Positions 23,458 to 31,281 of a DNA stretch of 41,837 nt are shown here, one piece after another. Position 1 is the first letter of the stretch. Each line of letters opens with the position of its first letter. The translations under genes and the position numbers were made by a program. Source of the stretch: a virus; IMG/VR virus record IMGVR_UViG_3300003690_003729, positions 1-41,837 of that record; one strand, given 5' to 3'. Below the pieces are notes generated by a model. It saw only the letters and a list, made by a program, of their open reading frames with translations. It was not told where the DNA came from and ran no database searches.

Positions 23458-23503
23458 GCTTGTCTCCTGCGCAGGTTCAAGCGGGGTTCTGTTGAGGTGT
23501 GCT

Positions 23504-23566
23504 GCTATGGTGGGCAGGCTTCGCGGGGGAGGGTAGTGGTGGGCGTTGTGCCAGAGGTGGGGGACA
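23504..23566 (-). promoter_or_regulatory. Late promoter of the FI operon
   Basis: Dyad element TGT-N14-ACA (23547-23566) sits in TTGTGCC...GGGGACA. The -10-like CATAGC (minus, 23504-23509) lies 50 bp from the dyad centre. A block of about 23 bp beside the dyad (GGGTAGTGGTGGGCGTTGTG and on) is nearly identical to that upstream of V at 31244-31267. Probably the Ogr target. Confidence 0.65.
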
Positions 23567-23588
23567 GAAGGCGGTGAAGAGCAGACAT

Positions 23589-23616
23589 AAAAAAAGCCCG
23601 CCGAGGCGGGCTTATG
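23589..23616 (-). terminator. Leftward intrinsic terminator
   Basis: AAGCCCGC/GCGGGCTT stem (23594-23601 with 23606-23613), loop CGAG, followed on the minus strand by seven Ts. It must close a leftward transcript starting right of it. That fits the small ORF at 23627-23722 and not FI, which starts further left. Confidence 0.85.
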
Positions 23617-23626
23617 TGGAGCTGGC

Positions 23627-23722
23627 TTACAAAAGAGTCCAGTAAGGCCAGAGCAGAAATGCCATATCAATCAGCTTTGATGTTACTTCTAGCATCAACA
23701 AACTGAGATCCAAATACCTCAT
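23627..23722 (-). CDS. Hydrophobic 31-residue peptide, candidate type I toxin
   Basis: A short reading frame with a textbook ribosome site: AAGGAG six bases before ATG (23720-23722). The peptide is 31 residues, starts MRYLDLSLLMLEVTSKLID and ends MAFLLWPYWTLL. It has only a few charges and is otherwise Leu/Met/aromatic-rich, long enough for one membrane helix, like TisB, ZorO or ShoB toxins. A small hairpin (ATCGC-GAAT-GCGAT, 23735-23748) lies just upstream of the ribosome site, and a T-run terminator lies 14 bp after the stop. A divergent small-RNA unit sits in its presumed leader. I do not recognise the peptide family. Confidence 0.6.
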   Translation of the reverse strand: MRYLDLSLLMLEVTSKLIDMAFLLWPYWTLL

Positions 23723-23800
23723 ACACTGCTCCTTATCGCATTCGCGATTGCAGCGAGGCTAAGCAGAATCTTCAACTGATACTTGAATAAAGCATCATTT

Positions 23801-23828
23801 TTGATATCTTGGACTTGAGAGATATAAA
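23801..23828 (+). promoter_or_regulatory. Strong sigma70-like promoter for antisense RNA
   Basis: TTGATA (23801-23806, 5 of 6 to consensus), 16-bp spacer, TATAAA (23823-23828, 5 of 6). It points right into a 55-nt unit ended by a terminator, with no start codon. It is one of the best constitutive promoter matches in the window. Confidence 0.65.
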
Positions 23829-23834
23829 ATCCTT

Positions 23835-23891
23835 GGCCTAGCCTCTGGTTTTATCGGAACGAAAGCCCTGGTCCCACAACCAGGGTTTTTT
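23835..23891 (+). ncRNA. Candidate antisense antitoxin RNA
   Basis: Predicted transcript of about 55 nt from the promoter at 23801-23828 to an intrinsic terminator (GAAAGCCCTGG 23861-23871, paired to CCAGGG 23880-23885 and the following T-run/TTTC). It is fully complementary to the presumed 5' leader of the leftward hydrophobic-peptide mRNA, about 110 bp upstream of its start codon. The layout resembles IstR-1/TisB. No protein is encoded in it. Confidence 0.5.
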
Positions 23892-23898
23892 CGTTTGC

Positions 23899-23958
23899 CT
23901 GTACAACGTGTACAGACTAGAACAGATACTATATATAGGACAATGGAAAATCAATTCA
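23899..23958 (-). promoter_or_regulatory. Leftward promoter and TGTACA palindrome for the peptide unit
   Basis: On the minus strand TTGAAT (-35, 23953-23958), 16-bp spacer, TATATA (-10, 23931-23936) predict a start near 23924. Just inside the transcript is the perfect palindrome CTGTACA-ACG-TGTACAG (23899-23915). It is one base too long for the LexA consensus (CTGT-N9-ACAG rather than N8). The promoter is a by-eye call; the palindrome is certain. Confidence 0.45.
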
Positions 23959-24155
23959 AGCATATGTGGTATTTTTCATCCACAGGATATTGACTGATAA
24001 GCCCCCGCACTGCCCCTGAAAGTAAAAAACCGTCTCTATTGATTAGCAAACAAAAGCTTGATTCTTCCTGAGTTTAAAAAAAAGCAATAAACTACAGTCA
24101 GGACGCTTGTTTTGATATTTCAGATTTCTTAGCCAAACCAATAAAATATGAGGCC

Positions 24156-24230
24156 ATGTTTTTATTTATAGCCTTTCTTGGTTTGGCGATACTGTTTCTA
24201 TGGCCTGTTAAATTAGTTTTTGTCATATGA
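24156..24230 (+). CDS. Possible 24-residue membrane peptide
   Basis: A very hydrophobic frame (MFLFIAFLGLAILFLWPVKL and four more residues) in an AT-rich gap. The frame is open upstream for 24 codons without an ATG (SDFLAKPIKYEA). GAGG lies only two bases before the ATG, so initiation is doubtful. A 69-codon frame on the opposite strand (24098-24307, AAGGT before its ATG) is an alternative reading. Either may be a relic. The rest of 23959-24375 shows no other feature I can support. Confidence 0.25.
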   Translation: MFLFIAFLGLAILFLWPVKLVFVI

Positions 24231-24375
24231 AGCGTTCTATCGGCAAGCGATGAGCTATTCATTGTTGTCGGCTTGCTGCATGTGCCCGAAATATATTGAC
24301 TAACCATAATTTACCTTTAAGGTTTCCCGGCAAACTAAACCTCAAAACTAAAAAACGATGTCGCAAGGGGAACAC

Positions 24376-24993
24376 ATGAAGTGCTTGAAAATTATCGGGT
24401 TATTGGCTGGTTTAGCTCTGTTGCACGGCTGTGCTGCTGTACCTGAGTCTCATAAGCTGGCTTATGAACCGCAACCAGACGTTACCCCTGTTGAGGGTGC
24501 TTCGCAGGTCGCGGTCAATGTTGTGGTTGAGGATGCGCGTGAAGATCAGCGCCGTATCAGTCATAAACGACACAGCTGGGGCTTTCCGATGGCATCGATT
24601 CATAGTGAGGAGCCAGTAGAAGAAGCCGTGAAAGCTGCCATCGAGCAGGAGTTGTTAGCCAGAGGGTTTGGGTTAGACGGTGATGCTTCTGTCATTATTC
24701 AAGGCGATATCACCGAGCTGTACTCGAACTTACACCTGATAGACACCTTCTTTACAGGCAAGGCGGTAGGTAAGTCTACGATTCAGCTAGAGGTGATGTC
24801 AGAAGCCGATGAGGTGCTGTTCAGCAGAGAAATATCCGTTGCCCCTGAACATAAAGGCCTGATGTACCAGTCTGCGTCTAACCTAGCCAGGCCAGTAGAA
24901 TTGGCGATTGAAGAAACGCTTGATGAGCTGTTTGATGATCCGCTGTTTATGGATGCTTTGTTGAGCGATAGCCACGCCAGTAGCGTTAGGTAA
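24376..24993 (+). CDS. YajG-like lipoprotein (lysogenic-conversion candidate)
   Basis: A 205-residue lipoprotein. Start MKCLKIIGLLAGLALLHGCA has a signal peptide and lipobox LLHG-C (Cys19). Ribosome site AGGGGAA precedes this ATG, so the six upstream codons are left out. The body (VAVNVVVEDAREDQRRIS...EEAVKAAIEQELLARGFGL...VIIQGDITELY) matches the pattern of YajG-family envelope lipoproteins. It is on the plus strand among leftward late genes and bounded by a terminator, so it is a moron probably expressed from the lysogen and changing the host outer membrane. Confidence 0.75.
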   Translation: MKCLKIIGLLAGLALLHGCAAVPESHKLAYEPQPDVTPVEGASQVAVNVVVEDAREDQRRISHKRHSWGFPMASIHSEEPVEEAVKAAIEQELLARGFGLDGDASVIIQGDITELYSNLHLIDTFFTGKAVGKSTIQLEVMSEADEVLFSREISVAPEHKGLMYQSASNLARPVELAIEETLDELFDDPLFMDALLSDSHASSVR

Positions 24994-25016
24994 CGACAGT
25001 TCCAGCGCAGCAATGT

Positions 25017-25040
25017 GAAGCCCGCCAATTGGCGGGCTTC
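25017..25040. terminator. Bidirectional terminator
   Basis: Perfect 24-bp palindrome, GAAGCCCGCCAATT and its complement, between the convergent lipoprotein gene and the last tail-fibre gene. It would end both transcripts. Confidence 0.85.
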
Positions 25041-25059
25041 ATTCGTTCTGGCTAGAGGC

Positions 25060-25542
25060 TCATACTTCCGGCGGCCGGTAACGGTTGAGCTGTTCGATGG
25101 CTTGCTGGGCCGCCTCCTCTGCGGCTTCGATGGTGTCGGCGCGTTGCACCGCTGCTTTACCACCCAGGCGCAAGTTGCGGATATCGCGCAGGGCGGTTTC
25201 CCATTGCTCGGCGGTGGCGACGATCTCTTGGGCGGCAGCTTCGGCGCTGACCTCAAACATGGCCATGTGGTCGCTGACGCTGGAAGGGATGGCCGTTTCA
25301 TCCTTGCCGCCTGCTAACCACTCGCTGGCTTCCTGCTTGGCCAGCAGGTACTCCTGATCGATATAGCTACCGGGGCTGACGAAGGCGGCGCGAGCACGGC
25401 CTGCGGCATTATCAATGTCGATACCAAGCTGGCCATGCGCGGCATTCATTACAACTTCTAACGGCACGCCTTTTTCCAAAAGATCGACAGATAGGAAGTC
25501 TGAATAAATGACTTCATTGTGTTTGAGCTGCTTAATCTTCAT
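25060..25542 (-). CDS. Tail-fibre-associated protein, likely assembly factor
   Basis: A 160-residue protein at the end of the fibre cluster. It starts MKIKQLKHNEVIYSDFLSVD and has a long helical C-terminal half (EQWETALRDIRNLRLGGKAA... AQQAIEQLNRYRPPEV), a shape common in tail-fibre assembly chaperones encoded after the fibre gene. No clear family motif is seen; the call rests mainly on position. Confidence 0.5.
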   Translation of the reverse strand: MKIKQLKHNEVIYSDFLSVDLLEKGVPLEVVMNAAHGQLGIDIDNAAGRARAAFVSPGSYIDQEYLLAKQEASEWLAGGKDETAIPSSVSDHMAMFEVSAEAAAQEIVATAEQWETALRDIRNLRLGGKAAVQRADTIEAAEEAAQQAIEQLNRYRPPEV

Positions 25543-31218: not shown

Positions 31219-31281
31219 CTAATGGTGGTGGCGTTACGCGCGGATGGGTAGCGGTGGGCGTTGTGCCAACTGGCTAGGACA
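31219..31281 (-). promoter_or_regulatory. Late promoter of the V operon
   Basis: Dyad TGT-N14-ACA at 31262-31281 (TTGTGCC...AGGACAA), with -10-like CATTAG (minus, 31219-31224) 50 bp from its centre, exactly as at the FI promoter. The neighbouring block of about 23 bp is shared with the FI promoter with one mismatch. The predicted start is within a few bases of the V start codon. Confidence 0.65.

Follow-up and report, generated by a model that had tools for sequence, protein, structure and literature searches.

In the tisB/IstR-1 type I toxin-antitoxin system, the toxin promoter is under the stress repressor LexA and the charges of the TisB peptide are arranged in a narrow polar strip (PMC8309996, PMC4147584). 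DinQ is also LexA-controlled (PMC8309996). Sites of NrdR, a sensor of deoxyadenosine triphosphate (dATP), have been described as two palindromic 16-bp boxes that lie 31–32 bp apart (PMC2892513, PMC12051234), with spacers of 14–17 bp (PMC12051234), and nrd operons are induced by hydroxyurea through NrdR (PMC2892513). The P2-like phages of E. coli, for their part, carry defence genes in a variable slot between A and Q (Rousset et al., 2022, PMC9122126). Here, we analyse a 41.8-kb virus record of a P2-like phage of salt-loving bacteria (IMG/VR record IMGVR_UViG_3300003690_003729; the full 41,837 nucleotides are called the window below), in which a gap upstream of the tail sheath gene FI contains a minus-strand frame for a 31-amino acid peptide. 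An original prediction, made from the letters of this DNA, read the gap as a candidate new type I toxin-antitoxin locus. Judged from sequence comparison, the leftward promoter of the peptide is a copy of the promoter that drives nrdH (class Ib ribonucleotide reductase) in the host, and we consider it likely that the locus is a type I toxin-antitoxin-like module, comprising a membrane peptide and an antisense RNA, that would be switched by NrdR instead of LexA. Type I toxins wired to the SOS response through LexA are known; in the open-licence literature searched, we found none wired to NrdR, no paper linking NrdR to a toxin-antitoxin or phage gene, and no mobile-element gene placed in the NrdR regulon.

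The nrdH-type promoter of the peptide

When the window was searched with a profile of nrdH promoters (nhmmer), the sole match was the block preceding the peptide leader (E 3.4e-20, 73 bits). This block, ATACCACATATGCTTGAATTGATTTTC...TATATATAGTAT, is near-invariant across phage and chromosomal copies. By pattern search, 68 of the 275 family genomes contain it, compared with none for the reversed-pattern control, and in all 67 of the 68 genomes where a copy was inspected it precedes nrdH, second copies aside. Most genomes of one Halomonadaceae clade have a single copy, placed before nrdH; in one representative, where a superoxide dismutase gene lies just upstream, NCBIfam confirmed NrdH and NrdI. 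The upstream inverted repeat TGTGGATGAAAAATACCACA was considered as a site for the phage late activator Ogr and rejected, since it belongs to the nrdH promoter in 60-odd host chromosomes.

The block contains two 16-bp NrdR-type boxes over the −35 and −10 of the promoter, which were assigned through their identity with nrdH promoters. Their 16-bp spacer fits the published spacing of NrdR sites, and box 2 (core CTATATATAG) forms a good palindrome. NrdR itself (TIGR00244, over the cut-off) was present in all nine carrier genomes tested. The presence of an nrdH-type promoter on the peptide points to induction by a shortage of deoxynucleotides (dNTPs). The original prediction had correctly placed a leftward promoter here, and its identity as an NrdR-type nrdH promoter went unrecognised. 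LexA control was rejected, because the promoter is of the nrdH type with NrdR-type boxes and no LexA box was found: a 17-bp palindrome just downstream of the toxin mRNA start (CTGTACA-CGT-TGTACAG, 23898-23914) has the spacing N9, not the N8 of LexA. This palindrome, which is not kept in two relatives (L176 and L177), is possibly an operator or a leader hairpin.

Second copies of the block were found in eight genomes, and seven of the eight precede this peptide. The remaining one, in G199, is a rearranged fragment that adjoins a phage-type integrase and has no peptide; there (L237, G199:C22:311800-313000), the promoter fragment lies between the end of a tyrosine-integrase gene and an AlpA-like gene. 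For three of the seven genomes (G221, G269, and G267), comparison with the 68 nrdH promoters gives the genome's own one as the nearest to the peptide promoter, with identities over the upstream part of 0.87, 0.91, and 0.83 (next best 0.80, 0.80, and 0.75, respectively). The chance of at least 3 of 7 being closest to their own is ∼1e-4, an approximation that treats the genomes as independent. In the other four, the genome's own nrdH promoter ranks 5–20 and is not the closest, and capture or conversion therefore appears to be recurrent, not universal. In G269, the usual place of nrdH, behind sod and the sod terminator, is occupied by the module, and nrdH lies at one end of another contig with a second copy of the promoter before it, from which we infer that module and nrdH are neighbours in this genome.

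Conservation of the peptide and of a predicted antisense RNA

A tblastn search of 171 loci gave a first relative of the peptide in L099, a prophage of Billgrantia aerodenitrificans, where it is 39% identical and occupies the same site upstream of FI. Further members came from a search of the 275 family genomes with a two-row profile, and viral contigs contributed L193/L196, L194, L280, and L006; scanning these contigs with a WPYWP DNA pattern gave unrelated matches too, and the real ones were sorted by profile search. A nine-row profile matched 8 of the 275 genomes at E < 1e-12, with noise at E > 0.05. One locus with a score at this noise level (L189, E 0.0502) was accepted as a genuine member because the same promoter is present there. 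The resulting family has 14 distinct members of 31–39 amino acids in Halomonadaceae genomes and phages, with the core LWPYWP and the typical pattern M[RK]xxE...D...LIEL...LWPYWP. A search at the level of the order (392 genomes) produced no strong member other than those already known, and the family seems restricted to Halomonadaceae and the phages of these bacteria. In phage and plasmid records, tblastn with the peptide produced nothing, and a distant blastn of phage records with the entire gap as query produced terminator-like matches only.

Among the members, differences per codon position 1/2/3 are 0.45/0.29/0.63, and synonymous divergence (dS) is near saturation, far above nonsynonymous divergence (dN, 0.13–0.62). 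The peptide frame is therefore under selection, and the loss of the frame or of synonymous bias in relatives, which the original prediction had named as grounds for giving up its reading, was not seen: all 14 diverged members are intact, and the bias is strong. A purine run resembling a Shine–Dalgarno sequence is present in 14 of 14 members, and a terminator directly 3′ of the open reading frame (ORF) in 12 of 14. The predicted structure is a single helix spanning residues 2–30 (mean pLDDT 87, a per-residue confidence score), in which D5, E12, K16, and D19 share one face. In its length, Shine–Dalgarno sequence, synonymous bias and predicted helix, the ORF, which is presumably translated, has the form of a short hydrophobic type I toxin gene. 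The peptide had not been recognised in the original prediction, and no known family model fits it: neither NCBIfam nor Pfam gave a match at E<=1 for any of the 14 members, PDB sequences gave none at E<=10, PHROGs gave weak matches only (E 0.13 or worse, one member each), and no homology of the 14 to the TisB, ZorO, ShoB, DinQ, Hok, Ldr, or Ibs families was detected, with the limit that very short peptides place on all such searches.

Of the 14 loci, 12 have an intrinsic terminator on the strand opposite the leader, 157–190 nt before the toxin start codon, compared with 0.33 loci expected from dinucleotide shuffles, and a sense-strand terminator in the same region is found in one locus only. 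At L189, a thirteenth locus, the leader is longer and the hairpin, spotted by eye, lies farther upstream. The stem varies in sequence and keeps its pairing; three or four types of pair occur at each position, as expected of compensatory changes. Its outer seven pairs are 100% complementary within a locus and 67% complementary with arms swapped between loci, a comparison that is descriptive because stems were picked by eye around the terminators. The promoter-like TTGATA-16-TATAAA, to which the original prediction had assigned the small RNA, is present and was rejected as the main promoter, since relatives L176 and L177 are without it. Transcription probably starts instead from the conserved TTGAAT-16-TATCTT and, given the position of this promoter, the small RNA would be ∼75 nt rather than the ∼55 nt first proposed. 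The −10 element in the window's subtype is TATCTT or TATATC, and a second subtype has TTGAAx-16-TAATTT and variants.

The predicted small RNA is fully complementary to nt ∼35–109 of the peptide-mRNA leader. The peptide mRNA has a folding z-score of −5.1, and in a consensus leader structure from four loci, 11 of 42 pairs have two-sided changes. In four loci of the second subtype, the small RNA is predicted to start 2–5 nt from the first codon (ATG) of a leader ORF (MxKxNT...), and this ORF ends in an ATGA overlap with the start of the toxin frame. Rfam gave zero matches in the window and in the nrdH loci. The frame, Shine–Dalgarno sequence, terminator, plus-strand promoter-like site and hairpin, and leftward promoter of the original prediction could all be located, and coding constraint, the conserved antisense terminator with its compensatory changes, and the conserved antisense promoter agree with the type I architecture, which we regard as well supported by these comparisons; the toxicity of the peptide is putative.

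Genomic settings and features of the window

The module sits between FI, which runs leftward from 23457, and a rightward gene for a YajG-type lipoprotein. The earlier placement between FI and the fibre genes holds on the FI side; on the other side the lipoprotein gene adjoins, and the fibre genes come beyond it. The lipoprotein has a 75% identical chromosomal relative in L203, near a copy of the peptide module and dusA. Besides the window, members lie upstream of FI and on its strand in L200 (G221), L206/L099, L194, L193, L196, L006, and the more distant L204, and chromosomal members adjoin dusA, on the dusA strand, in L199, L203, and L201. A phage-borne addiction or exclusion module, as originally envisaged, is consequently one option only, the module being also chromosomal, both beside dusA and, where nrdH normally lies, behind the superoxide dismutase gene. 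Halomonas colorata FME66 is one strain with a chromosomal copy.

The slot upstream of FI has varied contents in related Halomonas P2-like phages, including a cytosine methylase, an AT3-SGNH acyltransferase, a HigB toxin, and unknown proteins. Pfam and PADLOC left most slot proteins unnamed, and PADLOC recognised only the methylase among ten. Some slot proteins (FI-upstream regions, L003-L104; window 23480-25060) are unknown membrane proteins that start with a shared YLSGTVGV-type helix. In L002 (5114-5836), whose sheath protein is 98% identical, a degenerate nrdH-type promoter precedes an unrelated 198-amino acid protein in the same slot, and this protein has a 50% identical relative in L093; several slot cargo genes may use an nrdH-type promoter. 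Similar 20-bp motifs, TGTGCC...GGACA, are located before FI (23547-23566) and before the genes to the left of 31262 (31262-31281). They may represent late-promoter boxes that belong to the phage itself; TGT-N14-ACA as a whole is no more frequent in the window than expected by chance.

Table 1. Positions of the module's parts and of the adjoining gene, in window coordinates.
Feature	Position	Strand	Basis or remark
Intrinsic terminator AAGCCCGCC-TC-GGCGGGCTT + T-run	23589..23613	-	Behind the peptide ORF
Peptide ORF, 31 amino acids, hydrophobic, amphipathic, toxin-like, MRYLDLSLLMLEVTSKLIDMAFLLWPYWTLL	23627..23722	-	ORF list and family conservation
Shine–Dalgarno AAGGAG	23729..23734	-	Sequence; six bases 5′ of the peptide ATG
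Structured leader of the peptide mRNA, ∼200 nt	23723..23925	-	Folding; long stem GAGGCTAGGC/GCTTAGCCTC and, directly 5′ of the Shine–Dalgarno sequence, a small hairpin
Conserved promoter of the antisense RNA, TTGAAT-16-TATCTT	23783..23810	+	Kept in the window, L175, L176, L177
Promoter-like site of the original prediction, TTGATA-16-TATAAA	23801..23828	+	Present; not kept in L176, L177
Predicted antisense small RNA, ∼75 nt	23817..23891	+	Deduced from promoter and terminator; fold z -2.9
Antisense-RNA terminator, hairpin AAGCCCTGGT/ACCAGGG + T6	23863..23891	+	Antisense terminators in 12/14 loci
Whole nrdH-type promoter block	23922..23996	-	nhmmer match to the profile of nrdH promoters
NrdR-type box 2	23925..23940	-	Contains -10 (TATATA, 23937-23932); matches the clade's nrdH promoters
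Leftward promoter TTGAAT-16-TATATA	23959-23932	-	Sequence
NrdR-type box 1	23957..23972	-	Overlaps -35 (TTGAAT, 23959-23954); 16-bp spacer to box 2
DnaA-box-like TGTGGATGA	23977-23985		Within the nrdH-type block
YajG-type lipoprotein gene	24358-24993	+	Pfam Lipoprotein_16; other neighbour of the module, opposite side from FI

Proposed switch, alternative explanations and described systems

In the model that we favour, host NrdR would repress the nrdH-type promoter of the peptide while dATP is plentiful, and the plus-strand antisense RNA, predicted to be constitutive, would pair with the mRNA leader, hold down translation of the peptide and absorb leakage. A drop in dATP, caused by hydroxyurea, by replication stress or by a replicating phage that drains the pool, would release NrdR, the mRNA would then outnumber the antisense RNA, and the amphipathic peptide would act on the membrane and slow or stop the cell. 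Such a switch may serve in dormancy, in addiction or in defence against other phages. We also raise, tentatively and as the less probable part of our interpretation, the idea that mobile elements captured a host ribonucleotide-reductase promoter so that depletion of dATP by replication, an invading phage's included, frees the toxin, and that the promoter is renewed by recombination with the nrdH locus of each new host. If true, dormancy or abortive infection would gain a new trigger, and phage cargo a new means of sensing host metabolism.

Several observations weigh against an NrdR-switched toxin of type I. Box 1 is an imperfect palindrome, one locus (L182) is without a recognisable antisense terminator, and the leader ORF of the second subtype was not found in the subtype of the window. 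The peptide is only moderately hydrophobic (GRAVY, or grand average of hydropathy, 0.94), with a charge of −1. Three members (L172/L099, L280, and L182) are without the nrdH-type promoter, and peptide and RNA can therefore exist under other control. The modest hydrophobicity and net negative charge would also suit a membrane small protein with a regulatory or accessory role in the dNTP-stress response, for example in replication, transport or ribonucleotide reduction, the level of which is tuned by the antisense RNA and which is no toxin. A promoter common to the peptide and nrdHIEF, and the copy at the nrdH site itself in G269, are in keeping with such a role. However, a toxin-antitoxin-like element is the better fit to a sporadic distribution, with strong matches in 8 of 275 family genomes, and to movement between phage and chromosome, and rapid divergence of the peptide alongside a conserved antisense RNA is less expected of a housekeeping regulator; we therefore think an accessory protein rather unlikely.

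Somewhat less improbable, though still on the unlikely side, is a phage-specific exclusion or abortive-infection gene that serves the prophage against competitors, NrdR sensing the DNA synthesis of the incoming phage. The varied cargo upstream of FI would suit this, as would the related nrdH-type promoter before a different protein in the same slot of L002 and the precedent of P2-like phages in E. coli, where a comparable slot located at another site contains defence genes (PMC9122126). However, several copies lie on chromosomes away from any phage neighbours, so that the role would not be phage competition alone, and the methylase was the only one of the slot proteins that PADLOC could name. 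That a chance ORF and chance hairpins happen to lie in a non-coding gap beside a promoter remnant is very improbable. Short ORFs are indeed frequent, the window having 219 ATG ORFs of 25–45 amino acids, 3 of which combine a Shine–Dalgarno sequence with GRAVY >= 0.9, but the frame with its synonymous bias, the Shine–Dalgarno sequence, the promoter, and the antisense and post-ORF terminators are conserved in independent loci, which refutes chance as far as sequence allows.

The NrdR-switched toxin-antitoxin-like module that we favour combines properties of several described systems. As in tisB/IstR-1, there is a peptide of ∼30 amino acids with its charges on one face, a long structured leader, a predicted small RNA placed far upstream of the Shine–Dalgarno sequence and, apparently, a promoter under a stress repressor. 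The repressor would be NrdR, however, where that of tisB is LexA, the peptides show no detectable family match, and the predicted antisense RNA would overlap the leader in full from the opposite strand, whereas the divergent IstR-1 is complementary over 21 nt. The analogy to TisB/IstR-1 in the original prediction thus holds for its logic, while the position of the antisense RNA is closer to hok/Sok. A predicted cis-encoded antisense RNA inside a long leader resembles the layout of hok/mok/Sok, as do, in relatives of the second subtype, the overlap of a leader ORF with the toxin start and the predicted beginning of the small RNA at the start codon of this ORF; the peptide is unrelated, and the window's subtype has no such ORF. 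To our knowledge, the Cys and C-terminal features of Hok are absent from the peptide described here. The zorO/OrzO, shoB/OhsC, and dinQ/AgrB systems likewise have a short hydrophobic peptide and a small RNA encoded nearby, but differ in promoter control and give no sequence match. With the NrdR regulon, the module shares the promoter block and NrdR-type boxes of host nrdHIEF, whereas the described targets are ribonucleotide reductase operons and topA (PMC4409342). Finally, like the accessory hotspots of P2-like phages (PMC9122126), the locus is variable cargo between conserved genes, but it lies upstream of the sheath gene FI, and the cargo is placed under a host metabolic promoter.
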